Made by a program: the position numbers and the translations under genes. The notes beneath the pieces were generated by a model. That model saw nothing but the letters and a program-made list of their open reading frames with translations, was not told where the DNA came from and searched no databases. This document shows, one piece after another, positions 8,211-56,451 of a stretch of 64,000 bases of DNA (position 1 is its first letter; the number at the start of each line of letters is the position of its first letter). The stretch is taken from contig JAHJZX010000001.1 in the NCBI GenBank assembly GCA_018826295.1, positions 1-64,000 on the forward strand, written 5' to 3'. This stretch comes from Gammaproteobacteria bacterium. Its GTDB lineage: Bacteria; Pseudomonadota; Gammaproteobacteria; Enterobacterales; Alteromonadaceae.

Positions 8211-8244
8211 CTGTCATATTACTGCAATAAAAATGCAGCAAACT
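8211..8244 (+). promoter_or_regulatory. PhoB box and promoter of pstS
   Basis: CTGTCAT-ATTA-CTGCAAT-AAAA-ATGCAGC (8211–8239) shows three 7-bp half-sites at 11-bp spacing. The first pair closely fits the E. coli Pho box (CTGTCATAWAW + CTGTCAY). A weak -10-like CAAACT (8239–8244) lies 10 bp after the second half-site. This predicts activation of pstS on phosphate starvation. Confidence 0.8.
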
Positions 8245-8280
8245 GCAGCCAACCCAAGATCGGATAACCGAGGAATGATG

Positions 8281-9306
8281 ATGAAATTAAATACTCTTAC
8301 CGCTGTGCTGTTGGCTGTTGGTGTGCTGAGCACGTCAGCTCAGGCTCAAAGTAGCCGTGATACTATTCAAATTGCCGGTTCATCAACAGTACTGCCATTC
8401 TCGTCTGTTGTGGCTGAAGAGTTTGGTAATAATTTTGCCCAGTTCCGTACACCAGTGGTAGGGTCTGGCGGTTCATCAGGCGGTTTACGTCAGTTTTGCC
8501 AGGGTGTTGGCGCCAATACTATCGATATTGCTAACTCATCACGTAAAATCCGGCCAAATGAAGTTGAAGCCTGTAAAGCTAACGGCGTAAAAGACATTAT
8601 TGAAGTCAAAATTGGTTATGACGGCATAGTGTTTGCCTCACGTACCGATGCAGCTGTGTTTAAATTAGAGCCGCTGCATGTGTTTTTAGCGCAGGCCGCT
8701 CAGGTACCACAAAACGGTCATATGGTGACTAACCCATACACGCGCTGGAACCAAATCGACAAAAGCCTGCCGGATCAGGAAATTTTGCTGGCGATTCCAG
8801 GCTCAAACCACGGTACCCGCGAAGTTTATGAAGAAAAAGCGGTGATCCCGGGTTGTAAATCACTGGCTGAAGTAAAAGCCATGGATAAAGACGCCGCCCA
8901 TAAATTCTGTACCGCTATGCGTACCGACGGCAAAGTGGTAGAAATTGCCGGTGACTACACCGAGACACTGGCACGGTTACAGGCACAGAAAGACGCTATC
9001 GGCGTATTTGGTTTAAGCTTCTATGAAGCCAACCGTGACCGTATTAAGGTTGCCACTATGTCTGGCGTAGAACCGAACCAGGATACCATTATCTCCGGTG
9101 AATACCCGGTATCGCGGCCACTGTTCATTTACGTTAAAGGTGCTCACATTGGCGTGATCCCAGGCTTGCAGGAATATGCTCAATTTCATGTCAGTGACAC
9201 TATGTCAGGTTTTGGCAGTGTGCTGGAAAGCGCCGGTTTAATACCCTTGGCAGATGACGAGCGTGCTGAAATTCAGCAAGCTATCGCATCAAAAAAATCG
9301 CTGTAA
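8281..9306 (+). CDS. pstS: Phosphate ABC transporter, periplasmic binding protein
   Basis: High-affinity periplasmic phosphate-binding protein that delivers phosphate to PstCA. It has about 341 residues with a signal peptide (MKLNTLTAVLLAVGVLSTSAQA). The mature protein begins near the family pattern IQIAGSSTVLPFSSVVAEEF, then has VGSGGSSGGLRQFCQG and IANSSRKI, loops that bind phosphate in the PstS family. Three ATGs stand in a row (8275, 8278, 8281); AGGA at 8271–8274 best fits 8281. A further ATG at 8233 lies inside the Pho box and is rejected. A strong hairpin separates pstS from pstC, so excess PstS over permease is expected. Confidence 0.95.
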   Translation: MKLNTLTAVLLAVGVLSTSAQAQSSRDTIQIAGSSTVLPFSSVVAEEFGNNFAQFRTPVVGSGGSSGGLRQFCQGVGANTIDIANSSRKIRPNEVEACKANGVKDIIEVKIGYDGIVFASRTDAAVFKLEPLHVFLAQAAQVPQNGHMVTNPYTRWNQIDKSLPDQEILLAIPGSNHGTREVYEEKAVIPGCKSLAEVKAMDKDAAHKFCTAMRTDGKVVEIAGDYTETLARLQAQKDAIGVFGLSFYEANRDRIKVATMSGVEPNQDTIISGEYPVSRPLFIYVKGAHIGVIPGLQEYAQFHVSDTMSGFGSVLESAGLIPLADDERAEIQQAIASKKSL

Positions 9307-9320
9307 ATACAACGCTATAA

Positions 9321-9350
9321 ACTAAAAGAACCCGGCAGGGTTCTTTTAGT
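9321..9350 (+). terminator. Terminator or attenuator between pstS and pstC
   Basis: A perfect 13-bp stem, ACTAAAAGAACCC pairing with GGGTTCTTTTAGT around GGCA, starts 14 bases after the pstS stop and is followed by an AT-rich stretch. It probably ends most pstS transcripts. Confidence 0.85.
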
Positions 9351-9359
9351 TATATTGGG

Positions 9360-9393
9360 CTGTCATAAAAATGAAATATAAGCCGCTTACACT
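9360..9393 (+). promoter_or_regulatory. PhoB box and promoter of pstCAB-phoU
   Basis: CTGTCAT-AAAA-ATGAAAT (9360–9377) is a 7-4-7 Pho box with a consensus first half. TACACT at 9388–9393 is a -10 candidate exactly 10 bp downstream, as at E. coli PhoB promoters. It lies just past the pstS terminator. Confidence 0.78.
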
Positions 9394-9432
9394 GCCAGCC
9401 TTAACTGGCGTAATGCTGCTTACGGAGTGACC

Positions 9433-10812
9433 ATGAGTAACCTGTCGTTAATTGTAGTGCTGTTGATGTTGCTGGCTATGGGCTATCAGTTTGGTACCCG
9501 CCGCAGCCGCAACGTTGCTACAGTTAACCCTAATTTGCGTATGCATTCCAGGCCACACCACTACGGTATGATGGTAGGGCTGTGGGCGGTTCTGCCAGCC
9601 TTTATGCTGCTGCTATTGTGGCTGTGGCTGTCGCCGGCAGTGATTAATGCGATGCTGGTTAGTGCTTTACCGGCCGATATTGCCAGCCAGAGTGCCGAGC
9701 AACTCCGGGTGGTTTTACAGCGCATTAATAACCTGGCGAGTAATTTTGGTGTGGTAGCCGATGCTGAACAGTGGGAGCTTAACGCTGCTGAACAGCTCAA
9801 CCAGCTTAAAGCCAACAGCGCCATAGTGCTGACGGCGCTAATCGCTGTTATCGCAGCCGTTGGCATGTTACTTAGCCTGCAAAAAATCACCCCGTTGCTC
9901 AAAGCGCGGCATCAGGTCGAAAAAGTGGTGAAGGCGCTGCTGGTGTTGTGCTCGGCGGTGGCTATTCTGACCACTATTGGCATAGTGTTGTCGATGGTTG
10001 GCGAAACCATGAAGTTTTTCAGCTATATATCACCGACAGACTTCTTCTTTGGAACCACCTGGAACCCGCGTTTTTCTACGGTTGGCGTCGGCGAGCAGGG
10101 CAGTTTTGGCTTAGTGCCGCTATTGTCGGGTACTATGTTGATTTCAGCGATTGCGATGCTGGTGGCTATTCCGCTGGGGTTAATGGTGGCGGTTTATCTG
10201 GCCGAGTACGCTCCTTACCGGCTGCGTAACATTGCCAAGCCGGTGATTGAAGTGCTGGCCGGTATTCCTACCATAGTGTATGGCTTTTTTGCGCTGGTAA
10301 CGGTGGGGCCGTTTTTACGTGACTTGGGTAATGCTGTCGGCCTGAGTATTAACGCGACCTCGGCACTTACTGCCGGTGTGGTGATGGGCATCATGATAAT
10401 TCCGTTTATCTCGTCGCTATCCGACGACATTATAACCCAGGTACCAAAATCGATGCGTGACGGCTCTTTGGGTCTTGGCGCGACTAAATCTGAAACGGTA
10501 TTAAAAGTCGTGTTGCCGGCAGCCTTGCCTGGTATTGTCGGTGCGGTATTGCTGGCAGCCAGCCGCGCAATAGGTGAAACCATGATAGTGGTACTGGCAG
10601 CAGGTAACAGCCCGGCACTGACGGCTAACCCATTTGAAGCGGTATCAACCGTGACGGTAACTATCGTAAACCAGCTTACCGGTGACAACGATTTTTCCAG
10701 CCCGCAATCTCTGGTGGCCTTTGCCCTGGGATTAACGCTGTTTGTTATTACGCTGCTGTTAAACGTGATGGCGCTGGTAATAGTGCGCAAGTACCGCGAG
10801 CAATACGAGTAA
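9433..10812 (+). CDS. pstC: Phosphate ABC transporter permease PstC (enlarged form)
   Basis: Inner-membrane permease half of the Pst phosphate importer, about 459 residues against about 320 in E. coli. The extra length is N-terminal: two helices flank a soluble segment of about 80 residues (roughly 75–140), followed by a third helix. The conserved permease core begins near ISPTDFFFGTTWNP, with the binding-protein-dependent loop GIPTIVYGFFAL and the ATPase-contact EAA-like region KSMRDGSLGLGATKSETVLKVVLPAALPGI. The ATG at 9433 has GGAG 5 bp upstream; a GTG at 9427 overlaps that site. pstA follows after 3 bases. Confidence 0.93.
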   Translation: MSNLSLIVVLLMLLAMGYQFGTRRSRNVATVNPNLRMHSRPHHYGMMVGLWAVLPAFMLLLLWLWLSPAVINAMLVSALPADIASQSAEQLRVVLQRINNLASNFGVVADAEQWELNAAEQLNQLKANSAIVLTALIAVIAAVGMLLSLQKITPLLKARHQVEKVVKALLVLCSAVAILTTIGIVLSMVGETMKFFSYISPTDFFFGTTWNPRFSTVGVGEQGSFGLVPLLSGTMLISAIAMLVAIPLGLMVAVYLAEYAPYRLRNIAKPVIEVLAGIPTIVYGFFALVTVGPFLRDLGNAVGLSINATSALTAGVVMGIMIIPFISSLSDDIITQVPKSMRDGSLGLGATKSETVLKVVLPAALPGIVGAVLLAASRAIGETMIVVLAAGNSPALTANPFEAVSTVTVTIVNQLTGDNDFSSPQSLVAFALGLTLFVITLLLNVMALVIVRKYREQYE

Positions 10813-10815
10813 AAT

Positions 10816-12186
10816 ATGACCATTATTGCAGAAAATCCGATTAAAGCTGTGGCACCACCGTCGCAGGTACAGCAAAAAGTTATAGCCTCGCTGCAAAAGC
10901 GCCATCGTAAAGAACGCTTGTTCCGCAGTCTGGGCTTAAGCGCGGTGCTGATCAGCCTGGCGCTGGTGGCAGTGCTGTTTGTTAATATTTTCGCTAAGGG
11001 TATGCCGGCATTCTGGCAGTCGGCCATTACGCTGGATATTTATTTTGACCCTAAGATCATTAAGGTTGAAGAAAAACCGGTACAGCAGGCAGGCGAGTCT
11101 GACAATGACTTTCGCCAGCGAGATCTGGCCTGGCAAACCCAGCTGGGCTTTATTAACTTTAACCGTCTAATCACCGACAGCCTGCAGCAAATCTTGCCCG
11201 ATGCCAGCAAACACCGGCGCGATCTGGCGCGGGTAGTCACCTCAGGTGAACGCTTTGCACTGCGCGATATGGTGGTGGCCGATCCGTCTATTATTGGTCA
11301 AACCCGTACCTTGCACCTGCTAACTGATGCCAATATCGATGTTTGGCTAAAAGGCAATATTGACCGCAGCCTGCCGGATGAACAACAGCAGCTAAGCCCA
11401 AAAATGCGCGAATGGGTTGATAAGCTGGCCGCAGACGGTGTGATAACAAGCCGCTTTAGTCTGGCATTGTTTATGAACCCGGACTCGCGCAGCTCGCTGG
11501 CATCTGCCGGTTTGGCCGGTGCCTTTATGGGCTCGTTCTATATGATGCTGGTGGTAATCTTACTGGCGGTGCCGATGGGCGTTGCGGCAGCGATTTATCT
11601 GGAAGAATTCGCCCCGCGTAACCGTATTACAGATCTGGTTGAGGTTAATATCAATAACCTGGCAGCAGTACCGTCGATAGTGTTTGGTTTGCTGGGTGCC
11701 TCGGTACTAATTGGCTGGTTTAATCTGCCAATGTCGGCACCGATAGTGGGTGGTTTGGTGTTATCGCTTATGACATTGCCAACGGTGATTATTGCCACCC
11801 GCTCGACCCTTAAAGCCATACCGCCGTCAATCCGCCAGGCCGCACTGGGGCTGGGGGCGTCGAAAATGCAGGCCATATTTCACCATGTATTACCGCTGGC
11901 GATACCGGGTATTTTAACCGGGGCTATTTTAGGCGTAGCTCAGGCACTGGGTGAGACCGCGCCGCTGCTATTGATTGGCATGAAGTCCTTTGTTGCGTCT
12001 GTGCCGGCGTCACCGTTTGAGCAAGCGACGGCATTGCCGGTGCAAATTTACCTGTGGCAGGGCAATGAGCTGCGTAATTTCTTTGAAGCCCGCACCTCTG
12101 CAGCCATTATCGTGCTGCTGATGATGATGCTAAGCCTGAACGGCCTGGCTATCTGGTTGCGGAAAAAATACGAAAAACGCTGGTAG
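10816..12186 (+). CDS. pstA: Phosphate ABC transporter permease PstA (enlarged form)
   Basis: Second permease of the Pst importer, 456 residues against about 296 in E. coli. One membrane helix near residues 38–58 is followed by an unusually long periplasmic region (about 60–235, charged, with VDKLAADGVITSRFSLALFM), then the usual permease core (AGAFMGSFYMMLVVILLAVPMG onward). The core has the EAA-like loop SIRQAALGLGASKMQAIFHHVLPLAIPGILTG. Family members of this size pair with large PstC forms, as here. It is translationally close to pstC (3-base gap) and lies 66 bp before pstB. Confidence 0.93.
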   Translation: MTIIAENPIKAVAPPSQVQQKVIASLQKRHRKERLFRSLGLSAVLISLALVAVLFVNIFAKGMPAFWQSAITLDIYFDPKIIKVEEKPVQQAGESDNDFRQRDLAWQTQLGFINFNRLITDSLQQILPDASKHRRDLARVVTSGERFALRDMVVADPSIIGQTRTLHLLTDANIDVWLKGNIDRSLPDEQQQLSPKMREWVDKLAADGVITSRFSLALFMNPDSRSSLASAGLAGAFMGSFYMMLVVILLAVPMGVAAAIYLEEFAPRNRITDLVEVNINNLAAVPSIVFGLLGASVLIGWFNLPMSAPIVGGLVLSLMTLPTVIIATRSTLKAIPPSIRQAALGLGASKMQAIFHHVLPLAIPGILTGAILGVAQALGETAPLLLIGMKSFVASVPASPFEQATALPVQIYLWQGNELRNFFEARTSAAIIVLLMMMLSLNGLAIWLRKKYEKRW

Positions 12187-12252
12187 GCGCAGCCGGTAAC
12201 AGCCGCTGCAAGGTGTAGTAACAGTTTTAGTTTTTAGCTAACGGATAAACGC

Positions 12253-13023
12253 ATGACAAACACAGTTCCGGTAAAAATCAGTGCCAAAGACGTCAAAGTA
12301 TTCTACGGCGAAAATGAAGCGCTGCATGGCATCAGCATGGACGTGTATCAGAATGAAGTGATTTCTTTTATCGGCCCGTCTGGCTGCGGTAAATCAACAT
12401 TTTTACGTTGTATGAACCGGATGAACGATACCATAGAGCATTGCCGCGTAACCGGCAGCATTACACTGGACGGTCGCGACATTCATGAGCCGGCGCTGGA
12501 CGTCGTGCAGTTGCGGGCCCAGGTTGGCATGGTGTTTCAAAAGCCCAACCCGTTCCCGAAGTCGATTTATGAAAATATCGCCTATGGCCCGCGCTTACAT
12601 GGCCTGGCCGAGCGTAAAGCCGATTTAGACGATATCGTCGAGTCCAGCCTGCGCCGCGCTGGCTTGTGGAATGAAGTAAAAGACCGGCTGGATCAACCTG
12701 GTACCGGCTTATCCGGCGGCCAGCAACAGCGGCTGTGTATTGCCCGCAGTATTGCGGTGAGCCCGGAAGTGATCCTGATGGATGAACCCTGCTCGGCACT
12801 GGACCCCATCGCCACTTCGATTATTGAAGAGCTGATTGACGAGCTAAAGCAAAATTTCACTATCGTTATCGTCACCCACAATATGCAGCAGGCAGCGCGG
12901 GTATCTGATCGCACAGCGTTTTTCCATTTAGGCAATCTGATTGAAATTGGTAACACCAATGATGTGTTTACCAATCCGCAGCAAAAACGCACCGAAGACT
13001 ATATTACCGGTCGTTATGGTTAA
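12253..13023 (+). CDS. pstB: Phosphate ABC transporter ATP-binding protein
   Basis: Cytoplasmic ATPase of the Pst importer, 256 residues. Walker [10 protein letters not shown] is at residues 41–49, the ABC signature LSGGQ at 153–157, and Walker B ends in [12 protein letters not shown] followed by the switch histidine in IVTHNM. The PstB family pattern [15 protein letters not shown] and [19 protein letters not shown] is clear. It belongs to the pstC-pstA-pstB-phoU operon. PstB and PhoU together are known to hold PhoR inactive when phosphate is plentiful. Confidence 0.97.
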
Positions 13024-13058
13024 GTTTGCCCAACCTAAATTCGCAGGAGCACGGCGTT

Positions 13059-13781
13059 ATGCCAAACAGTAAGATTGGTGGCCATTATTCGCAGGCCTAT
13101 GATGCAGAGTTACAACAGGCAGTAGACCGCCTGATGCAAATGGCAGCGCTGACACAGCAACAGCTAAGCGATGCCCTGGCTGCTTTTGCCAGTGGCGATG
13201 TGGTGCTGGCGCAACAAGTCAAAGATTTTGATCGCAAAGTTAATAGCTTTGAAGTGGATATTGATGAGCATTGCCTGGACATTCTGGCGCGGCGCCAGCC
13301 TGCCGCCAGCGACTTACGCCTGGTATTGTCAGTGTTAAAAAGCGTAAACGACATTGAGCGGGTAGGCGATTTAGCCAAGCGCATTGCCAAAGCCCTGTTA
13401 AAAGGCGCCGAATACGGCCGTCCCAGCCAGGCTCAACTCGATGCCTTGTCTGTGATGGCGCAGAAAGTACAGCAAATGTTGCAGCGTGCGCTGGAGGCTT
13501 TTAAACAGATAGATGCGCAGGCAGCCTTGCATGTCCTGCGTGAAGATAAAGCCATAGACGACGATTATGCGCAGATTATTGCCCATAGCCTAAGCAGCAT
13601 GAAGCATGATGCGCAGCAAATAGGTGTGAGTTTGCAGGTGTCTAACGTGGCCAAAGCGTTGGAACGGGTTGGCGATCATAGCCGCAATATTTGCCAGCAT
13701 GCTATTTTTCTGGCCCACGGCCGTAATGTGGCACATTTAAGCGATGCTGAAGTTACCGAAGTGGTAGAGAAAAAGCCCTGA
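13059..13781 (+). CDS. phoU: Phosphate signalling protein PhoU
   Basis: About 240 residues, two PhoU three-helix repeats. Each repeat carries the family's metal-binding pattern: the first has RQPAASDLRLVLSVLKSVNDIERVGDLAKRIAK and the second NVAKALERVGDHSRNICQ. It links the Pst transporter to the kinase PhoR and suppresses the Pho response in high phosphate. The ATG at 13059 has GCAGGAG 9 bp upstream; an in-frame TTG at 13026 has no such site. It is the last gene of the pst operon and ends in a terminator. A second, distinct PhoU-type gene is at 47515. Confidence 0.94.
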   Translation: MPNSKIGGHYSQAYDAELQQAVDRLMQMAALTQQQLSDALAAFASGDVVLAQQVKDFDRKVNSFEVDIDEHCLDILARRQPAASDLRLVLSVLKSVNDIERVGDLAKRIAKALLKGAEYGRPSQAQLDALSVMAQKVQQMLQRALEAFKQIDAQAALHVLREDKAIDDDYAQIIAHSLSSMKHDAQQIGVSLQVSNVAKALERVGDHSRNICQHAIFLAHGRNVAHLSDAEVTEVVEKKP

Positions 13782-13909: not shown

Positions 13910-13984
13910 TAGTCATAAAATCATCATGTTATAGTCGTAAAAATGTCATTTTGTCATTTTAGTGTCATAAATTATTCATAAGAT
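13910..13984 (+). promoter_or_regulatory. Array of seven PhoB half-sites before the porin
   Basis: Two runs of 7-bp units at exact 11-bp spacing. Run one is TAGTCAT (13910), TCATCAT (13921), TAGTCGT (13932) and ATGTCAT (13943). Run two, shifted to an 8-bp offset, is TTGTCAT (13951), GTGTCAT (13962) and TATTCAT (13973). TAAGAT at 13979–13984 is a -10 candidate 10 bp after the GTGTCAT unit. This is the longest such array in the window. Confidence 0.78.
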
Positions 13985-14052
13985 AACCGCCATCAACATT
14001 AGCGATGTCGAATCTGACCGCAACGACGCTCACTACAACACAGGTGCAAGGT

Positions 14053-14955
14053 ATGAAAACAACAGTAGCAATTTTATCTACCACTCTGGCCGCCTTTGCC
14101 GTGCAGGCAGATCCGGTAACAGTGTATGGCCAGTTAAATGTCTCAGCACAATCCAGTGATGAAGGTGAAGGCCGCTTCTCTGAGCTGAAAAGCAACAGTT
14201 CGCGCTTTGGCTTAAAAGGCGACTATGAACTGGAAGGTGGCCTGAAGCTGGTGTATCAGCTGGAGTGGGGCGTAGATTTGGCCGACGTCGGCGACGGTGA
14301 CAACATTACCTCGCGTAACCAGTATATTGGTTTGGCCGGTAGCTTTGGCGAAGTTCGTTTGGGCCGGCACGACACAGCATTAAAAGATGCACAGGGTAAA
14401 ATAGATCTGTTTAGTGATTACGAGGCCGACGTTAAAGCGCTGTGGAAAGGTGAAGTACGTGCCAGCGACTCAATTACTTATTACAGCCCCAGCTTTAACG
14501 GTTTTGGTGTGCAGCTGACTTATGTAATGGAAGATGCCGCCGATGCCGAAGATGCGTTTTCAGCGGCCGTGTATTACGGTGACGAGAATCTGAAAAACAG
14601 CAATTTTTATGCGGCGGTAGCAATGGATGCCGATGTAGCCGGTTACGACGCGATGCGGGTGCAGGCGCAGGGTAAAGTTGCTGGTTTTAAACTGGGCGCT
14701 ATGTTTCATAGCCAGGAAAATATTGTCAGCGGCCTGGAGCAGGACGGCTGGTTGTTAAGTGCGGCTTACCCTATGGGTAAAACTGAACTGAAAGCCCAGT
14801 ACCAGACATTGGAAGATGATGATGCCATCAGCTTAGGTGTAGATTACAAAGCCGGCAAAAATACCACCTTGTACGGCTGGTACAGCAGTTTTAACTTCGA
14901 TACCACAGCGCCGGATCGTGACTATCTGGCGGTGGGTATTAAACATAAGTTTTAA
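14053..14955 (+). CDS. Outer-membrane porin, probably phosphate-starvation induced
   Basis: About 300 residues. The signal peptide is MKTTVAILSTTLAAFAVQA, then a Gram-negative porin (OmpC/Porin_4 type) begins with VTVYGQLNVS and ends in the aromatic strand AVGIKHKF, with terminal phenylalanine as needed for Bam-dependent insertion. NSSRFGLKGDYELEGGLKLVYQLEWG and NQYIGLAGSFGEVRLGRHDTAL are family blocks around the eyelet region. The ATG at 14053 sits at the signal peptide; an in-frame ATG at 14005 would add 16 residues ahead of it. It follows the pst operon and is preceded by a large PhoB half-site array, so a PhoE- or OprP-like role in anion or phosphate entry is inferred, not shown. Confidence 0.88.
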   Translation: MKTTVAILSTTLAAFAVQADPVTVYGQLNVSAQSSDEGEGRFSELKSNSSRFGLKGDYELEGGLKLVYQLEWGVDLADVGDGDNITSRNQYIGLAGSFGEVRLGRHDTALKDAQGKIDLFSDYEADVKALWKGEVRASDSITYYSPSFNGFGVQLTYVMEDAADAEDAFSAAVYYGDENLKNSNFYAAVAMDADVAGYDAMRVQAQGKVAGFKLGAMFHSQENIVSGLEQDGWLLSAAYPMGKTELKAQYQTLEDDDAISLGVDYKAGKNTTLYGWYSSFNFDTTAPDRDYLAVGIKHKF

Positions 14956-17852: not shown

Positions 17853-17881
17853 GCCAGATAACCGTATTTCGCATAGCAGAC

Positions 17882-17901
17882 GCCGGGCGCAGCTGCCCGG
17901 C
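17882..17901 (+). other. Intergenic hairpin between glucanase and receptor
   Basis: GCCGGGC pairs with GCCCGGC around GCAGCT. It has no T run, so it is more likely an mRNA-stabilising or partial-attenuation hairpin inside the operon than a terminator. Confidence 0.55.
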
Positions 17902-17933
17902 AGGACATAACGAACAGAGCTTAGCAGGTCATT

Positions 17934-20916: not shown

Positions 20917-20942
20917 AAAGGCCTGCAAAATTGCAGGCCTTT
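20917..20942. terminator. Bidirectional terminator between convergent receptor genes
   Basis: AAAGGCCTGCA pairs with TGCAGGCCTTT around AAAT, with A residues on the left and T residues on the right. It can serve both converging receptor genes. Confidence 0.9.
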
Positions 20943-20957
20943 GTTTTAACTCTGCTT

Positions 20958-23618
20958 CTAGTACTTGTACGAGAAGCTTAAGCTGTAGTTTTGGCCTTCA
21001 ACCCGTTTTTGCAGGATCTCGCCTTGCTGCAGAATTTCCACATCTTCGTCCAGCAGGTTTTTCAGCCCCAGCTTTAACGTCATGTTGTCCATTGGCGTAT
21101 AGCTGTAGGTAAAGTCGAGCGAGTTAAACGGTTGTTCAAAGGCGTCGTCTTTGTCGTTCACGCCGGCAAAAGCAATGCGCTTACCAAACACGTTAAATGT
21201 TAAGGTCGCGTTGTGCTGGTTGTTGTCAGAGTCAAAGCCCAGTTGCAAGTTAGCCACATATTTAGAGTGACCGCTTAAGCTGCGCTCTAAATTGGTCAGG
21301 TTAGCACCCGGGAAACGTTGAATGCTGATTTCAGACTCACTAAGCGTCAGGTTACCAGCCAGGAAAAAGTTGTCGGCCAGCTTACCAAAGTCACCGCCAA
21401 ACATGTCCAGTTGCTGCAGAAACTCCGCTTCAGCACCATAAACTTTGCCACTTTGCGCATTGCGGAACGACATTAACAGGTTGCCGTCCGAGCCAGACAA
21501 TTCAATGGCTTCAATCGGGTTTTCTAAATCCTTATAGAAGACACCGATGCTGTAGTTGCTAGTGTCGTAGTACCATTCTAAGCGCACATCAGCACTGCTG
21601 ATGTCGGTGCTTTTCAGGCCGGCAAAACCGGTTACTTTAAAGTCGGTTAACGGGTCAACGTATAATACCGGGGTAACTTCACGTAAATCCGGCCGTACGA
21701 CGGTCTTGCTGTAACCAAAGCGCGCTTGTAAGTCGTCATTAACAAACCAGGTTAATGACAGTGCCGGGTAGAAACCGTCTTCCATTAACACTGAATCGGT
21801 GACTTCGCCGCTGACATTACCATCGGCACCCAGCGGTAGCGATACCTGTTTAAAGTCTTCATAACGCACACCGACATTTAAGCGGAATTTGTAGTCGTAG
21901 TTGACTTCCAGCGCGGCGTAACCGGCATCAATCATTTGTGCTGCCAGGTAATCATCTGCCTGAGTGGTGACGTTAGAGATTTTAAAGCCGTTGTCCGGGT
22001 TTAAAATATTGCTGTCGGAGAAAATCTCCGAAAAACTGCCGGCTAACTGTTGCAGGCTGTAGCCAACGGTATCAAAGTTAAAGCGGTCGGTCTGGGCATC
22101 ACGGCTACGTTCAAAATAGCTGTAACCGCCACTAAAGGTCATTTCTGCTTTGCCCAGCGTCAGAGGTAACTTAGCATTCCAGCTTAAGTTTTCTGTGTTG
22201 TCTTTCATATCGCTGAAACTGTAATTTACCGCGTTCTGGTTACGGCGCAGGAACGAGAACACAGAGCCATCGGCCTGGGTTTCGTTCAGGTAGCGGTATT
22301 CCACTTCACCTGGTGCATAGCGGCGTGCTTTGGCATCGGTATATTGCCAGTCTACGGCTAAATCCATCAGGTAGGGGAAGTTATGCTTACCACGCAACTG
22401 GTTGCTTAACATGCTGCGTTCTTCATAAGTAATGCTGGTGTCGGTATTAGAACGGTTAGTTTCGTTGATGGTTTCGATACTGTCGCCGTTTTTAATCTTA
22501 ACTTCGTCTTTGGTATCGCGCAGGTAAATAGTGGACGTTTCCAACCGGTGGTCGACACCCAGCTCTAAACCAAAGTTCAGCATGCCAGACAGCTTAACCT
22601 GATGCTCAGTACCCTTAATATCGTCATAACGGTTAAGTGGTGTTAACGATTCACCTGATACGGAGTAGTAGCGCTCTTGCTCGTCGATATTCTGTGTTGA
22701 GCGGTCATAGCTTAAACCGCTCATCACGCCAAATACTACGTTTTTGGCGATATCAAAGCGCGAGCCAAAAGATACGCTGCCATCAAAATCGGGCTTAACC
22801 GACGTGCGGCTAACATCAATATCGCGGTTAAAGGCCGTGCCTAACTCCCGCACTATGGTTTCTGCCTGCGCCAGGTTACCGGCATTAATGCCACCTAAGG
22901 CTTCAGCGATATTAATCGGTGTCAGCACGCCATATTGTGCCTGGGCAGCGGCCAGTTCGGCCGATATAGCCCGGCTGCCATCGTCTTTGCCACGCCAGTC
23001 ATCGCCGCCGCCGGCATATTCATAGCCGTCGTCACTGTTCAGGCTGCTGTAGCCGGTGCCAACCGACAGGTTAAAGGTGGTTTGCAGCGGAATAGCGGCG
23101 GTGCGGATATTTACATTACCGCCACCGAAGGCTGCAGGTAGCTCTGGCGAATAGGCTTTTTGTACCACTAAACTTTCAATAATACCGGCCGGAAACATAT
23201 CCAGCGGAATAACATTACGTGTTGGGTCCGGGCTGGGTACCATGGCACCGTTTAATAAGGTGCTGGAATAACGCTCACCCAAACCGCGTACATAAATAAA
23301 CTTATCTTTTACCAGGGTTAAACCTGTTACCCGGCGCAGTGCGGTAGCGGCATTGCTGTCACCGGCGCGGGAAATTTGTTCCATGCCAAGTAATTCGGCC
23401 ACATAAGGTTGCTCGCGGCGCTCTGCCGCGGCAGAGGCAGCGGAGCTCATCAGACGGCCGGATACAGAAATGCGTTCTACTTCTTCTTCATTTTGGGTCG
23501 GTTGCGGCTGCGTTTCCTGCGCTACTGCACCCAGCGACGCCAGCGCGGTTGCCGTGCTAAGTGCCAGCAACACACTGCGGCCTACACGACTGAAATTAAA
23601 CTTTTGCATGCTGCTCAT
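20958..23618 (-). CDS. TonB-dependent receptor paired with the beta-helix lipoprotein
   Basis: An 886-residue outer-membrane receptor with signal peptide ending LGAVAQ, then EEEVERISVSGRLM (TonB-box region). The plug has VAELLGMEQISRAGDSNAATALRRVTG, FIYVRGLGERYSSTLLNGAMVPSPDP and GGGNVNIRT; the barrel ends FSYKY. The plug type differs from that of the receptor at 17934. It lies 120 bp downstream of the duplicated beta-helix lipoprotein on the same strand. A hairpin with T run stands between them, so receptor levels may be lower or depend on readthrough. Because the lipoprotein promoter carries PhoB half-sites, uptake of a phosphorus-containing ligand is inferred. Confidence 0.9.
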   Translation of the reverse strand: MSSMQKFNFSRVGRSVLLALSTATALASLGAVAQETQPQPTQNEEEVERISVSGRLMSSAASAAAERREQPYVAELLGMEQISRAGDSNAATALRRVTGLTLVKDKFIYVRGLGERYSSTLLNGAMVPSPDPTRNVIPLDMFPAGIIESLVVQKAYSPELPAAFGGGNVNIRTAAIPLQTTFNLSVGTGYSSLNSDDGYEYAGGGDDWRGKDDGSRAISAELAAAQAQYGVLTPINIAEALGGINAGNLAQAETIVRELGTAFNRDIDVSRTSVKPDFDGSVSFGSRFDIAKNVVFGVMSGLSYDRSTQNIDEQERYYSVSGESLTPLNRYDDIKGTEHQVKLSGMLNFGLELGVDHRLETSTIYLRDTKDEVKIKNGDSIETINETNRSNTDTSITYEERSMLSNQLRGKHNFPYLMDLAVDWQYTDAKARRYAPGEVEYRYLNETQADGSVFSFLRRNQNAVNYSFSDMKDNTENLSWNAKLPLTLGKAEMTFSGGYSYFERSRDAQTDRFNFDTVGYSLQQLAGSFSEIFSDSNILNPDNGFKISNVTTQADDYLAAQMIDAGYAALEVNYDYKFRLNVGVRYEDFKQVSLPLGADGNVSGEVTDSVLMEDGFYPALSLTWFVNDDLQARFGYSKTVVRPDLREVTPVLYVDPLTDFKVTGFAGLKSTDISSADVRLEWYYDTSNYSIGVFYKDLENPIEAIELSGSDGNLLMSFRNAQSGKVYGAEAEFLQQLDMFGGDFGKLADNFFLAGNLTLSESEISIQRFPGANLTNLERSLSGHSKYVANLQLGFDSDNNQHNATLTFNVFGKRIAFAGVNDKDDAFEQPFNSLDFTYSYTPMDNMTLKLGLKNLLDEDVEILQQGEILQKRVEGQNYSLSFSYKY

Positions 23619-23695
23619 CTGAACTTTGTCCTATCAGCTTTTACTGTTATATCTGCGTTGCATTGACTGATTTGCTTGCTGTGCAATGCTGTGAA

Positions 23696-23730
23696 ATAAA
23701 AAACACTGCCAGGCAAAACCCGGCAGTGTT
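23696..23730 (-). terminator. Terminator or attenuator after the beta-helix lipoprotein
   Basis: AACACTGCC (23702–23710) pairs with GGCAGTGTT (23722–23730), and the stem can extend inward with one mismatch. Read on the minus strand it is followed by six T residues. It lies between the lipoprotein and receptor genes and probably sets their ratio. Confidence 0.82.
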
Positions 23731-23738
23731 AGTTGCTG

Positions 23739-26420
23739 TTAGTCGTCTAAACCAACGGTCCAGCCTGCAGTCCAGTCATTGCCAGGTTTTACTGCACCGA
23801 CAAAGTCAACGGCGTCGAAGAAGCTATCTGCCGTCATATCTTTTGGCGTAGTGGCATCGATAGTGAAGATGCCGTCCAGCACTGCTGCCTGATTGGCGGC
23901 TACGCTATTGCCGGCCTGGCCAAGGAACCATTGCTCTGTAGTAGTGCCGTTGCCCAGGTCGCCTTTAAATGGCTCTGCACAGGCGATTACCGAGTTTGTC
24001 ATGGTTAATGAGCCAGCCGCTGCCAGCGCTTTGGTTTCTGCCGAGTCAAATTCCAGACATTCACCCATACCTTCAGGGCCGGTGATAACAAAGTTAGCCA
24101 GTTGGGCATTGGTACCGGCACGCAGCAAGACGCCTTCAGAATCGTCGTCGCCGTCAAAGGTGTTGCCGATAATGGTCATATTGGCGATTGTCGGGTTAGA
24201 GATTGGCAGGGCACCGAAGTTACCTGACTGGTTATCCGCTTCAATACCACGGTTGGCTTTAGCGCCATCGGCAGCGTGTTTTACCAGTACAAATTGCAGT
24301 TTACCGTTCCAGCCGTCTGCCCAGTCTACTGAGTCATCGCCGTTGGCGGTCAGTACTACGTTTTTACAGCTGACGCTACCGCCAAACATTTCGATACCGT
24401 CATCCACGTTCTGGTGTACCTGAATGTTTGAACACTTAGTACCTGAACCGACACCAGCAAAAGTAATACCGTTTAATTCGTTATCCGGGATAACTTCAAA
24501 ACCGGCGTGTTTAACCACCACATAATTTAGCGTACCGCTGCTGTCAGCCGGGTTATTGCCGCCGTAGTTACCGGCATCGCCTTCAGCCGATACCTGACAG
24601 TTTGCCAAATCAGCCTGATCACACTTGTTGCTTGGCGCTTTGCCCAGCAATACTAAACCACCCCATTGACCGGCAGCGGTTGGTGAACCGATAACATCCT
24701 GTACTGACGTCATCACGATTGGGTTAGCGGCAGTACCGTTGGCTTCAATTTTTGAACCACGGGTAACGACCAGGAAGTCGGCACCGGATTTGCCGAAAAT
24801 GCGCACGCCAGGTTGTACTGTTAAGGTTGCTGCTGTGGTGTTGTCGATACCAACACGTACCCGGCCACTTAATACATAATCTGCGCCGGCAACCAGGGTA
24901 ATGTTATCGGTGATATCACCGGTTAACTGACAGTTTAGTTTACCGCTTAAGCTGTTTACTTCAGTAGTGCCAGACGGGCAGGCGGCTAAATCGTCTTCCG
25001 GGTGAATACCCACTGTCCAGCCAACTGTCCAGTCGGTAGTGCCATCAAAAGCACCAATGTAATCTACAGTGTCAAACCATGGATCAACGTTATTAGCCAC
25101 GTTATAACCGTTACCCAGTGCAGGTGAGTTAGGAGCTGGCACATAACCGCCTATCAGCGCATCGGTAATCATATTGCCAGGCTGTTGCATAAACCAGGCT
25201 TTAGCGTCCAGCGTCACGTTGCCATTGCCATCTACTGAGTTTTTAGTTGGCTCGGCACAATCGATAATAGAGTTACGGAACACGATTTCACCGTTGCCGG
25301 CATTGGCAACAGATTCGTCAGAGTTAATTTCAAAACACTCGCCCATGCCTGATGGGCCAGTGATAACAAAGTTGTACAGCTCAGCAGCAGTACCAGCACG
25401 CAATAACACGCCTTCTGAGTCGTCTTCGCCGTCAAAGTTATTACCGACAATCGTCATGTTGGCAATTTGCGGTTTAGATACCGGCTCAGCGGTAAAGTTA
25501 CCTGACTGGTTATCAGCCTCGATGCCGCGGTTGGCTTTGGTATCGTTCGGGTTGTGGCGCACTAAAACGTGCTGCATACGGCCAGTCCAGCCATCTGCCC
25601 AGTCCAGCGAGTCATCACGGTTGCCGGTTAATACGACGTATTTGGCATCAACAGTACCGCCGAAAAATTCAACGCCGTCATCCAGGTTGTTGTGCACCTG
25701 GATATATTCCACCGTAGTACCGCGACCAACACCGGCAAAAGTAATACCGTTTAATTCGTTATCCGGAATAACCTCAAAACCGGCGTAACGTACCTGTACA
25801 TATTTCAGCGCGCCGCTGCTATCTTCGGCATCTGCACCGCCGTATGGGCCAGCTTCGCCTTCAGCTTCTACCTGACAGTTAGCTAAATCCGCCTGATCAC
25901 ATTTGTTAGTAGGTGCATTACCCAGTAATACCAGGCCACCCCATTCGGCCGCTGATTCGTCATCGGATAAGCCCAGCATGTCGTTAACTGACGTCATGAT
26001 GATAGGATCGGCTGCAGTACCGATAGCCTGAATTTTTGAACCGCGGGCAACCACCAGATAGTCGGCACCGCTCTTACCAAAAACGGTGGTACCCGGCTCT
26101 ATGGTCAGGGTTGCGTTGTTGGCATTGTCGTTACCTACAGTGACCTTGCCGCTTAATGACCAGGCGATGTTTGCGGTTAAACGGACATCGCTGGTGATAG
26201 TGCCGGTAATCTCACATACTGTTTTGCTGACGCCAGCCAGGCTGTTGCCCTGCGTTGCAAAAGCCGGGCAGGCACTGGCTGGTGGTGGCGTCGGGTTACC
26301 GCCGCCATTATTGCCGCCATTGTCGTTGCCACCAGCGTTAACGACTAAGTCGCCACCACAGCCCGCCAGCATAAGGGCTGTTGCCACTGCGCTCAGTTTT
26401 ATCAGTTTACCTAAAGCCAT
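23739..26420 (-). CDS. Tandem-duplicated beta-helix lipoprotein, predicted PhoB-regulated
   Basis: About 893 residues. The lipoprotein signal MALGKLIKLSAVATALMLAGC has lipidated C21, followed by a glycine/asparagine linker. The rest is two homologous halves of about 427 residues (about 50–476 and 477–893). Both halves contain LTIEPG or LTVQPG, FGKSGAD(Y/F)LVV, (N/S)KCDQADLANCQV, IPDNELNGITFAGVG, GIEADNQSGNF, DDSEGVLLRAGT and GMGEC in the same order. The repeated short beta strands and aligned Asn/Asp/Gly turns suggest a right-handed parallel beta-helix. No catalytic motif is recognised. The ATG at 26420 has GGAGA 7–8 bp upstream; a more upstream ATG at 26426 almost abuts it. It is transcribed divergently from phoBR and followed by a TonB receptor, suggesting a surface ligand-capture lipoprotein (inference). 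Confidence 0.82.
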   Translation of the reverse strand: MALGKLIKLSAVATALMLAGCGGDLVVNAGGNDNGGNNGGGNPTPPPASACPAFATQGNSLAGVSKTVCEITGTITSDVRLTANIAWSLSGKVTVGNDNANNATLTIEPGTTVFGKSGADYLVVARGSKIQAIGTAADPIIMTSVNDMLGLSDDESAAEWGGLVLLGNAPTNKCDQADLANCQVEAEGEAGPYGGADAEDSSGALKYVQVRYAGFEVIPDNELNGITFAGVGRGTTVEYIQVHNNLDDGVEFFGGTVDAKYVVLTGNRDDSLDWADGWTGRMQHVLVRHNPNDTKANRGIEADNQSGNFTAEPVSKPQIANMTIVGNNFDGEDDSEGVLLRAGTAAELYNFVITGPSGMGECFEINSDESVANAGNGEIVFRNSIIDCAEPTKNSVDGNGNVTLDAKAWFMQQPGNMITDALIGGYVPAPNSPALGNGYNVANNVDPWFDTVDYIGAFDGTTDWTVGWTVGIHPEDDLAACPSGTTEVNSLSGKLNCQLTGDITDNITLVAGADYVLSGRVRVGIDNTTAATLTVQPGVRIFGKSGADFLVVTRGSKIEANGTAANPIVMTSVQDVIGSPTAAGQWGGLVLLGKAPSNKCDQADLANCQVSAEGDAGNYGGNNPADSSGTLNYVVVKHAGFEVIPDNELNGITFAGVGSGTKCSNIQVHQNVDDGIEMFGGSVSCKNVVLTANGDDSVDWADGWNGKLQFVLVKHAADGAKANRGIEADNQSGNFGALPISNPTIANMTIIGNTFDGDDDSEGVLLRAGTNAQLANFVITGPEGMGECLEFDSAETKALAAAGSLTMTNSVIACAEPFKGDLGNGTTTEQWFLGQAGNSVAANQAAVLDGIFTIDATTPKDMTADSFFDAVDFVGAVKPGNDWTAGWTVGLDD

Positions 26421-26469
26421 TACCATCTCTCCGTTGTGTTATTGTCGGTGGTGCTAAAAAGTTGCTTGC

Positions 26470-26525
26470 ACCCTACAACGGGGACGTGACGCTTTTATTA
26501 CAGCAATATGGCTGCAACATTACAG
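26470..26525 (-). promoter_or_regulatory. PhoB half-site array and promoter of the lipoprotein-receptor operon
   Basis: On the minus strand four 7-bp units occur at exact 11-bp spacing: CTGTAAT, GTTG linker, CAGCCAT, ATTG, CTGTAAT, AAAA, GCGTCAC (26525 down to 26486). A -10-like TAGGGT (26475–26470) follows after exactly 10 bp, about 50 bp before the ATG. Confidence 0.72.
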
Positions 26526-26689: not shown

Positions 26690-26722
26690 CTTTCATAAAA
26701 GTGTCATAATGTGCGGTAATAC
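26690..26722 (+). promoter_or_regulatory. PhoB box and promoter of phoBR
   Basis: CTTTCAT-AAAA-GTGTCAT (26690–26707) is a 7-4-7 Pho box. TAATAC at 26717–26722 is a good -10 hexamer 9 bp downstream. It predicts autoregulation of phoBR, as in E. coli. Confidence 0.82.
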
Positions 26723-26784
26723 TAGGCAGAGTAATCAGTTAACCGATACGGCCTTAGTGCCGCTATTTTTATGTGGTGAGAACA

Positions 26785-27471
26785 ATGGCAAGAAAGATCC
26801 TGGTAGTGGAAGATGAAGCGCCAATCCGTGACATGTTGTGTTTTGTGCTGGAACAAAATGGTTATCAGGCAGTAACCGCTGAAGATTTTGAATCGGCGGT
26901 CAATGCCCTGGTTGAGCCCTATCCGGATTTAGTGCTACTGGACTGGATGTTACCAGGCGGCAGCGGTATCCAAATCGCGAAAAAAATGAAGCAGCACGAT
27001 TTGACCCGCAATATCCCGATTATTATGATCACCGCCCGCGGTGAAGAAGAAGACAAAGTACGCGGCCTGGAAGTGGGCGCCGATGATTATGTGACCAAGC
27101 CGTTTTCACCGAAAGAGCTGATGGCACGCATTAAAGCCGTGATCCGCCGGGTGGCACCCACCAGCCTGGACGAAGTGATAGAAGTACAGGGCTTAAAGCT
27201 GGACCCGGTATCGCATCGGGTAATGGCATCGGATCAGGCGTTGGACATGGGGCCGACCGAGTTTCGTCTGTTGCATTTCTTTATGACGCACCCCGAGCGG
27301 GTATACAGCCGTGAACAACTGCTGGATCATGTCTGGGGCACTAACGTCTATGTTGAAGATCGTACGGTAGATGTGCACATTCGCCGTTTACGTAAAGCGA
27401 TTTCTCTGGCCGGTCATGATAGATTAGTACAAACCGTACGGGGCTCCGGTTACCGTTTCTCTGCCAAGTAA
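26785..27471 (+). CDS. phoB: Phosphate regulon response regulator PhoB
   Basis: A 228-residue OmpR-type response regulator. The receiver domain has phospho-acceptor D53 in [10 protein letters not shown], the acidic pair in VVEDE and the lysine in VTKPFSP. The C-terminal winged helix has [31 protein letters not shown] and [12 protein letters not shown]. The ATG at 26785 gives [18 protein letters not shown], nearly identical to E. coli PhoB, so the in-frame GTG at 26773 is rejected. It binds Pho boxes and activates phosphate-starvation genes. phoR follows after 18 bases. Confidence 0.97.
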
Positions 27472-27489: not shown

Positions 27490-28812
27490 ATGCGCCAACT
27501 GTTATCAAAAAGGAAGGTCTACACCAAGCTGTTCCTTTTTTTCTGTTTTATTGCTTTGGTTGGCCTGATTTCCGACAGCCTGTTGCTGGCATTGCTGATC
27601 TTTACCGTAGCGCTGTTACTGTGGCATTACCATCATTTGTTTTTAATGGACAAATGGTTGTGGCGTGACCGCAAACTGTCGCCGCCAATCAGCGAAGGCA
27701 TCTGGGGCCACCTGTTTGAAGGTATTTACTACCTGCAGCGGCGCGACCGGCGTAAGCGCCGCGAGCTGCGCAATGTGGTACGCCGCTTTCGTGATGGTGC
27801 CGAAGCCCTGCCTGAAGCCGTAGTGGTGCTGCGCGATGACTGGAGCATTATCTGGAGTAACAAACTGGCGCAAATTTTGGTGGGGTTGCGCTGGCCGGCC
27901 GACGAAGGCCAGCGGCTGGATAATCTAATTCGCCATCCGGAATTTTTGCAGTACATCAAAGCGACTAAATTTGAGCAGCCGTTGGTGTTGGCCTCGCCGG
28001 TAAATGACCAACTGACGCTCGAGTTTAATATTATGCCCTATGGCATTGAGCAGTACTTACTGATTGTGCGTGACATTACCCAGCTTAAACAACTGGAGCA
28101 AATCCGCAAAGACTTTGTCGCCAACGTATCACATGAGCTGCGTACGCCGCTTACCGTGTTGCAGGGCTATCTGGAAGTGATGGACGACGAACACCTGCCG
28201 GATAAAGCCATGTGGAAAAAAGCCCACAATGTCATGCTGGATCAAACCAAACGCATGGATGCTTTAGTGCAGCAGTTGCTAACCTTATCGCGTATTGAAG
28301 CCTCGGCCCGGGTGCAGTTTGACGACGAGGTAGATGTACCGCTGATGCTGGCGCAGCTGGAGCAGGAAGCGCAAACCGTAAACCGCGACAAGCAACATAA
28401 ACTGGTGTTTGATATAGATCCGTCATTAAAAGTGACCGGTGTGACTGAAGAGCTGCGCAGTGCTTTTTCTAATCTGGTGGTTAACGCCATTAAGTACACG
28501 CAAAATGGCGGCGATATTCACATCAGCTGGCAACGCCAGCATTTAAAAGCCGTGTTTTCTGTTAACGATAACGGCCCCGGCATAGCGCCGCAGCATGTTA
28601 AACGCTTAACCGAGCGCTTCTACCGGGTAGACGAAGCCCGTGCCCGCAACACCGGTGGCACTGGCCTGGGGTTGGCGATAGTGAAACATGTACTATCACG
28701 CCATAACAGCCGTTTAATGATCTTTAGCGAGCCGGGCAAAGGTAGCAGTTTCTCGTTCACCCTGCCGGCTGAGCTGGTACTGGGCAGTACGCCGAAGCGG
28801 TCACGCAGCTAA
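27490..28812 (+). CDS. phoR: Phosphate regulon sensor histidine kinase PhoR
   Basis: A 440-residue membrane kinase. Two N-terminal membrane helices (about residues 10–50) have almost no periplasmic loop. A charged linker and a PAS domain (LPEAVVVLRDDWSIIWSNKLAQ) follow, then the HisKA domain with phospho-accepting H215 in NVSHELRTPLTVLQGYLE. The ATPase domain has NLVVNAIKYT, DNGPGI and GTGLGLAIVKHVL. The layout matches E. coli PhoR, which senses phosphate through Pst and PhoU rather than a periplasmic sensor. It is in an operon with phoB. Its stop lies 3 bases from that of the convergent HDOD gene, with no terminator between. Confidence 0.97.
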   Translation: MRQLLSKRKVYTKLFLFFCFIALVGLISDSLLLALLIFTVALLLWHYHHLFLMDKWLWRDRKLSPPISEGIWGHLFEGIYYLQRRDRRKRRELRNVVRRFRDGAEALPEAVVVLRDDWSIIWSNKLAQILVGLRWPADEGQRLDNLIRHPEFLQYIKATKFEQPLVLASPVNDQLTLEFNIMPYGIEQYLLIVRDITQLKQLEQIRKDFVANVSHELRTPLTVLQGYLEVMDDEHLPDKAMWKKAHNVMLDQTKRMDALVQQLLTLSRIEASARVQFDDEVDVPLMLAQLEQEAQTVNRDKQHKLVFDIDPSLKVTGVTEELRSAFSNLVVNAIKYTQNGGDIHISWQRQHLKAVFSVNDNGPGIAPQHVKRLTERFYRVDEARARNTGGTGLGLAIVKHVLSRHNSRLMIFSEPGKGSSFSFTLPAELVLGSTPKRSRS

Positions 28813-46641: not shown

Positions 46642-46675
46642 ACTCTATGGCATTTTTATGACAGCAAGATGAATG
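46642..46675 (-). promoter_or_regulatory. PhoB box and promoter of ppk-ppx
   Basis: On the minus strand CATTCAT-CTTG-CTGTCAT-AAAA-ATGCCAT (46675–46647) gives three half-sites at 11-bp spacing, with a consensus CTGTCAT in the middle. TAGAGT (46647–46642) is a -10 candidate 10 bp after the CTGTCAT unit. It lies about 35 bp before the ppk ATG. Confidence 0.78.

Positions 46676-55263: not shown

Positions 55264-56451
<1,188 letters not shown>

Follow-up and report, generated by a model that had tools for sequence, protein, structure and literature searches.

A lipoprotein of the ElpS family and its TonB-dependent receptor beside phoBR: a probable PhoB-controlled pair for capturing phosphorus-containing ligands

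The window analysed here is the whole 64,000-nucleotide (nt) stretch at positions 1 to 64,000 of contig JAHJZX010000001.1, from a Gammaproteobacteria bacterium of the Alteromonadaceae (assembly GCA_018826295.1). On its minus strand it carries a lipoprotein gene (23739..26426; 895 aa by open reading frame (ORF) call) followed by a TonB-dependent receptor gene (20958..23618; an 886-aa ORF with Pfam Plug and barrel domains). The pair is divergent from phoB (26773..27471, +) and phoR (27490..28812, +), which scored over the cut-offs of NCBIfam TIGR02154 and TIGR02966, respectively; phoB passed one of the two PhoB equivalogs and phoR both PhoR ones. This arrangement had been described in an earlier note made from the sequence alone, and Pfam and NCBIfam agreed with it. 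We place the pair, with the evidence given below, in the ElpS/CC0171 kind, and on balance we favour the view that it is a PhoB-driven capture-and-import system for a phosphorus-containing ligand. The likelihoods expressed in this text are our judgements.

Upstream of the lipoprotein gene, a predicted PhoB box (26486..26525, -) consists of four 7-bp half-sites resembling CTGTCAT (CTGTAAT, CAGCCAT, CTGTAAT and GCGTCAC, read from 26525 to 26486) at exact 11-bp spacing, with a -10-like hexamer, TAGGGT (26470..26475, -), 10 bp downstream, just as had been noted before. We scored the window with a textbook PhoB matrix. The four-half-site array reached 26.5, the best score of the window on both strands, and the next independent site reached 18.9. 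As a two-half-site match the same site ranked only eighth (13.8) in the 64-kb window. Six of the seven higher matches precede the pstS-like gene, pstC, the porin gene, phoB or ppk (two of them overlap, at ppk), and the remaining one (56127-56144) is intragenic. Since seven of the top eight two-site matches lie before Pho-type genes or this pair, the scan serves as a positive control for the matrix. The box of phoB itself was predicted at 26690..26707 (+) by the same scan. No promoter turned up ahead of the lipoprotein gene in a simple search for sigma-70 sites, as expected for an activator-dependent promoter.

We then compared relatives at 77 loci, taken from the best 80 of 91 matches. Upstream regions were scored in 72 of these; L040, L045, L062, L065 and L067 were left out for a cut or uncalled ORF. 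Boxes beating 95% of their own dinucleotide shuffles were found at 60 loci with two half-sites, 60 with three and 53 with four. The median three-site score was 12.4 in the lipoprotein upstream regions versus 1.2 for 645 other genes (rank test, p ~1e-32, kinship ignored). This control used the 300 bases upstream of each gene, after removal of phoB, phoR, PstS-like genes and homologues of the pst, porin, ppk and ppx-like genes; it still includes real Pho-box genes, namely a 369-aa Porin_O_P gene in L003, DUF3450 genes of Pseudidiomarina and receptors of Halioglobus, the last two groups being among the 25 highest-scoring controls. In an earlier comparison with 350 bases of 663 neighbour genes, 14 of 72 loci (two half-sites) and 16 of 72 (three) fell under 5%, a weak separation that we attribute to the true Pho genes in that control set. 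Near the pair in L003 (18344-19453) lies a phosphate-selective porin O/P gene, and like-sized genes occur in L004-L007 (Pfam assignment for L003 only); these five genes of Arsukibacterium and Rheinheimera nanhaiensis outscored all other control genes for the Pho box.

Among 32 representatives of the relatives, a spacing of 11 gave a median three-site score of 11.3, against 2.8-4.3 for the other spacings from 8 to 15, and it ranked first in 23. In 14 near relatives chosen for printing, the array part TGTAATAAA and the hexamer TAGGGT were kept in all 14, and TGTAGGGT in 13. In three Halioglobus loci with receptor-first order (L070-L072) the box precedes the receptor gene (18.0-19.9), and the lipoprotein gene lacks it (1.9-3.7); at L073, which is receptor-first too, the receptor start was cut off and left unscored, and the lipoprotein score was moderate (11.1, shuffle p 0.025). 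Given the conserved box, the neighbourhood of phoBR, pst and porin genes and the published induction of the elpS promoter, the lipoprotein gene is very probably under PhoB control. Of the earlier proposal that the pair captures phosphorus under starvation, the PhoB control and the starvation role are thus well supported, and the phosphorus capture is plausible only.

The relatives also point to the identity of the pair. In Caulobacter crescentus, ElpS (CC0170) is a lipoprotein of about 50 kDa with the lipobox LAGC, made on phosphate starvation, and its gene is followed by that of the receptor CC0171 and then by gspC-N, with homologues in a similar order in Hyphomonas, Sphingomonas and Xanthomonas (PMC2996285). 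Phosphate starvation induces the elpS promoter (gene CCNA_00169), and this induction depends on PhoB (PMC5172544); a paper on the PhoB regulon names the type II secretion system (T2SS), TonB receptors and the Pst system (PMC11208175). The ElpS relatives FI, FII and FIII of Flavobacterium johnsoniae are strongly phosphate-regulated and induced at low phosphate; FI (Fjoh_3856) is clustered with the TonB-dependent transporter Fjoh_3857, and FII with phoBR (PMC8115612). The earlier remark that no function was known to be described for this lipoprotein family is to be amended, as the family itself is described in these reports.

We fetched single-domain relatives from eight loci of the Henriciella order (Caulobacterales) and found the order lipoprotein-receptor-gspD-E-F-G at seven and lipoprotein-receptor only at one; the two-domain Henriciella locus L061 shows the same order with gspC-G. 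The window lipoprotein was 35-40% identical to all four such relatives compared (E 7e-63 to 1e-74; 40% and E 6e-70 for L145), two of which (L139 and L141) are near-identical and one of which (L146) comes from a stretch without gsp genes. When the T2SS-linked L061 receptor was searched against the window genome, the best match was the window receptor (289 bits, full length) and the next reached 59 bits; the receptor of L054, a Henriciella stretch without gsp genes, gave 310 bits versus 57. From the lipoprotein homology, the published gene order and the L061 receptor match, it is very likely that the pair belongs to the ElpS/CC0171 kind, to which it is linked via syntenic relatives, ElpS itself being compared by description.

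The lipoprotein begins with a signal peptide and the lipobox LMLAGC (26358..26426, -), whose lipid cysteine C23 was invariant in 45 of 45 aligned proteins, and an outer-membrane site is predicted. Half alignment, borders in relatives and a structural model delimit domain N at residues about 48-475 (25002..26285, -) and domain C at residues about 478-895 (23742..24995, -). The two halves, already recognised as homologous in the earlier note, align at 58% identity over 431 columns (E 1e-172). No Pfam or NCBIfam match was obtained at E 0.001, and no PDB sequence match up to E 10. The AlphaFold2 model (mean predicted local distance difference test (pLDDT) 87.8) showed beta-strand repeats in both halves, and its predicted template-modelling score (pTM) was 0.56, so the interdomain angle is untrustworthy. 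Foldseek placed PL6 alginate lyases and a beta-1,3-glucanase nearest (5gkq, E 1.1e-5; 5m5z, E 5.5e-5); the seven matches with E no higher than 0.001 had 9-12% identity and low TM scores, and are to be read as likeness of fold only. Because of these fold matches and the strand pattern, both halves are predicted to be right-handed beta-helices.

To describe the conserved residues, we used 101 domains filtered to <75% identity out of 243. A carboxylate cluster was 100% conserved, formed by D249, D250, E253, D271, D275 and E303 in domain N (25518..25682, -) and by D675, D676, E679, D697, D701 and E729 in domain C (24240..24404, -). N323 and its second-domain partner were likewise invariant. D272, Q243 and Q285 were conserved at 96-99% and four cysteines at 93-95%, and R128/R556 was the only basic column conserved at 90% or more, apart from a histidine (H245, 92%). 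As the acidic turns precede successive parallel predicted strands, they would be expected to line up on a single edge of each beta-helix.

The number of domains varies within the family. Among 136 family proteins in the loci, counting domains >250 aa, 104 had two domains, 27 one, three had three and two none; no fewer than three genomes enter the count twice (L054/L108, L061/L109 and L055/L110), and the two-domain search queries favour the two-domain form in this sample. In a tree of 79 domains, first and second domains did not form two groups, and the strongly supported branches force at least 13-14 position changes, so the tandem would have arisen many times or its halves would have been homogenised by gene conversion. 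In the window's own clade, N and C types form separate, well-supported groups. An example of the tree result is Henriciella L063, whose two domains share 73% identity with one another but 55-57% with their L054 counterparts. A single-domain version (472 aa) occupies the same place beside phoBR in Rheinheimera sp. D18 (L039, 9001-10419) and groups with N domains; it looks like a secondary loss of one domain, because its domain sits among N domains in the tree. Three-domain versions of 1284-1301 aa, likewise with a receptor gene following them, occur in gammaproteobacterial metagenome-assembled genomes (L044, L046 and L048).

By ORF calling, a same-family receptor gene adjoins the lipoprotein gene in the same orientation at 72 of the 77 loci. 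As for the five others, L051 and L056 have the receptor by tblastn, L040 and L065 lie at a contig end, and the lipoprotein ORF of L045 was uncalled. The plug of the window receptor, which had been singled out as distinct, is present and divergent, and it is an ordinary TonB plug (PF07715, 34 bits), accompanied by a barrel domain. The receptor model (pLDDT 82.3, pTM 0.80) matched TonB receptors, among them PhuR, Cir, PfeA and FecA. We dropped a reading as an iron or haem receptor from this search, because many solved TonB receptors are of the haem or siderophore type and such a match says little.

Between the two genes of the window lies a terminator-like hairpin (23702..23730, -). The hairpin scan of the region found 7 hairpins versus 7.6 in shuffles, and therefore this hairpin alone means little. 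Across relatives, a hairpin followed the lipoprotein stop at 28 of 68 loci versus 25 of 1540 random windows; 25 of the 28 lie in the intergenic gap and those of L024, L032 and L048 inside the receptor gene. Twenty-two begin 5-9 nt past the stop, several with different paired bases. No such hairpin was found in the Rheinheimera-group loci L015, L017-L020, L031 and L033, in Aliidiomarina L025-L027, in SAR86 or in most Hyphomonadaceae. Where it is present, as in the window, we infer that the lipoprotein exceeds the receptor in amount, because a terminator-like hairpin would stop part of the transcripts. A second hairpin, with T-runs on both strands (20917..20942), marks the convergent end with the plus-strand receptor gene.

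Neighbours in the 77 loci were labelled by blast (PhoB at least 39% and PhoR at least 33% identity). This survey, of the kind proposed in the earlier note, showed how many loci carry phoB (37), phoR (34), PstS-like genes (15), pstCAB-phoU (18), T2SS genes (11) and ExbBD/DUF3450 genes (7); many phoB-bearing loci are close kin of the window. Among distant loci, Aliidiomarina L023 and Glaciecola L038 have phoB, phoR and PstS-like genes, and SAR86 L053, L060 and L068 have phoB- and phoR-like genes upstream and T2SS genes downstream. After the pair, Pseudidiomarina L074-L078 have a gene of 424-447 aa (MscS-like in L074) and then DUF3450 and ExbB-type genes. ExbD- and TonB-type genes were called in most of these loci, with ExbB, ExbD and TonB checked by Pfam in L074 only, and the DUF3450 gene heading the group has its own strong Pho box in five of five (18.7-24.4). 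Flanking genes gave a mixed, uninformative picture as hints to a ligand (ammonium transporter, sulfate permease, DNA ligase, ABC transporter, AMP-binding enzyme). Matches were found in 29 of 369 genomes of a class-wide sample, the window genome included, and in 94 of 120 genomes of the Henriciella order, the query genome included; the window genome itself gave one match, the lipoprotein gene.

On the side of the pair away from phoBR lie receptor, GH16, porin and pst genes. A pstS-like gene (under the curated cut-off), pstC, pstA, pstB and phoU occupy 8233..13781 (+), followed by a Gram-negative porin gene (14005..14955, +) with a PhoB-like box at 13951-13979. That box, TTGTCAT TTTA GTGTCAT, is the best two-half-site Pho box of the window, and for this reason the gene probably encodes a phosphate-starvation porin. 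Between porin and pair (15204-20894, +), Pfam identified a GH16 enzyme, with three similar C-terminal repeats seen by eye, and a second, large TonB receptor; in several relatives these two genes lie away from the pair, and the porin-pst side directly adjoins it. Elsewhere in the window are a winged-helix (Trans_reg_C), CadC-like protein with a TPR region (30664-33075) and ppk with a ppx-like gene (42950-46611, -), preceded by a PhoB-like box at 46647-46675.

Taken together, these data suggest the following course of events. When phosphate is exhausted, phosphorylated PhoB would bind the four-half-site box and drive the lipoprotein gene, and the terminator-like hairpin would pass only part of the transcripts into the receptor gene, leaving more lipoprotein than receptor. 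The lipoprotein would have its anchor in the outer membrane and, most likely, present its two beta-helix domains at the cell surface. The invariant carboxylate cluster of each domain would bind, probably with a divalent cation, or act on a phosphorus-containing ligand, which would be handed to the TonB-dependent receptor and so reach the periplasm, the phosphatases and the Pst system. That the two proteins act together is quite likely; that they form a physical complex is slightly favoured. The ligand probably contains phosphorus, and we lean towards a purely binding, non-enzymatic lipoprotein. A narrower version, less likely than not, is a TonB-energised outer-membrane importer for phosphate or small phosphoesters, each domain catching the anion by way of a cation bound at the invariant Asp/Glu/Asn cluster.

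Several observations weigh against the capture-and-import reading. In Caulobacter, cc0171 was reported to be constitutive, and no change in intracellular phosphate was noted (data not shown in PMC2996285). ElpS ends up released from cells, which is ill-suited to a fixed receptor lid (PMC2996285). Among the scored relatives, 12 of 72 have no significant two-half-site box and 12 no three-half-site one, and the opposite strand likewise shows the spacing of 11 (median 9.4), in part because the divergent phoB has a box. None of the phosphate, T2SS or TonB-ExbBD genes looked for was found in 26 of 77 loci (L045 included), and the orientation of the domains in the lipoprotein model is unsure. Finally, the mature lipoprotein is very acidic (D72+E37 = 109 versus K26+R16 = 42), so it is not evident that a free anion would bind directly, and a cation-held or catalytic site appears likelier than a basic anion pocket.

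A catalytic site would suit a different role, in which the lipoprotein is a surface beta-helix hydrolase, or an activator of an enzyme, splitting phosphorylated units off a polymer (teichoic-like glycans, capsule or nucleic acid, for example), and the products are taken up through the receptor. The nearest folds are those of polysaccharide-degrading type listed above, and the invariant Asp/Glu residues on successive rungs resemble a catalytic or calcium cleft; however, those matches are of fold only and no Pfam or NCBIfam family was hit. PL6 lyases use a catalytic Lys/Arg pair, and GH28 enzymes carry the motifs GHG and RIK. No invariant Lys/Arg pair was present in the 101 domains and neither GHG nor RIK in the window protein, and membership in PL6 or GH28 was rejected. 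Overproduction of ElpS raises secreted alkaline phosphatase activity, but the purified protein was without phosphatase activity (PMC2996285). We regard this enzymatic role as possible but unlikely.

The carboxylate-rich invariant site, the acidic lipoprotein and the likeness of the receptor to haem and siderophore receptors could also be explained if the pair supplied a metal (calcium, iron or zinc) for starvation phosphatases such as PhoX or PafA, and not phosphorus. The receptor match is of little weight for the reason given above, and where linked genes were seen, they were those of pho, pst, T2SS and TonB-ExbBD; we consider a metal supply improbable. More doubtful still is a role in secretion or adhesion, in which starved cells would release the lipoprotein or carry it as a surface matrix protein, and the receptor would be a partner for signalling or docking without import. 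ElpS is surface-exposed, and its cleavage and release depend on the T2SS (PMC2996285); T2SS genes occur in 11 of the 77 loci, but the window pair is not beside T2SS genes, gspD scoring over the cut-off on another contig (C40). Nor was a sigma or anti-sigma gene found among the annotated neighbours of the receptor (the lipoprotein gene and the second receptor), or a signalling extension between its signal peptide and plug.

If the importer reading is true, entry of scarce phosphorus through the outer membrane would be active and receptor-gated, and not by porin diffusion only. This would hold across a wide range of Proteobacteria, SAR86 included, and would extend to Bacteroidota if the published kinship holds; selection would have favoured a trap duplicated in tandem on repeated occasions. 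Whatever the mechanism, the locus ties the ElpS family to phoBR, pst and, in relatives, TonB-ExbBD, and the invariant residues are a constraint that any mechanism must explain. ElpS relatives can rank among the strongest phosphate-starvation responses, as in F. johnsoniae (PMC8115612), close relatives of the window pair exist in named, cultured Rheinheimera strains, and the SAR86 members make the family relevant to phosphorus supply in the open sea.

In the literature searched we found no published account of a ligand for the ElpS family or of its tandem two-domain proteins, nor of their repeated duplication or homogenisation, the invariant site, the hairpin or the Pho-box TonB-ExbBD operon. 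Compared with known systems, PL6 alginate lyases and beta-1,3-glucanases share the right-handed beta-helix fold with the lipoprotein model, but no sequence relation was found in the PDB search, and the catalytic Lys/Arg of PL6 are not conserved in the family. SusCD and PusCD resemble the pair in the way they work, with a surface lipoprotein and a TonB receptor, and PusCD is phosphate-regulated (PMC8115612). They differ from it in that the window lipoprotein is a predicted beta-helix without a SusD family match; a SusD-type lid was rejected on the lack of any Pfam or NCBIfam match at E 0.001 and on the beta-helix model. FI and FII of F. johnsoniae, compared by published text, share a cluster with a receptor (FI) or phoBR (FII), as in the window, whereas FI, FII and FIII belong to Bacteroidota (PMC8115612). 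The closest likeness is to ElpS/CC0171, to which the window pair is related via relatives homologous in both proteins, with PhoB and starvation control published for ElpS. In contrast to the ~50-kDa ElpS, the window protein is a tandem duplication of 895 aa. CC0170-CC0171 lie upstream of gspC-N, a neighbourhood that is a trait of Caulobacter and not clearly a defining one, whereas the window pair stands apart from T2SS genes, between pst-phoU-porin and phoBR.

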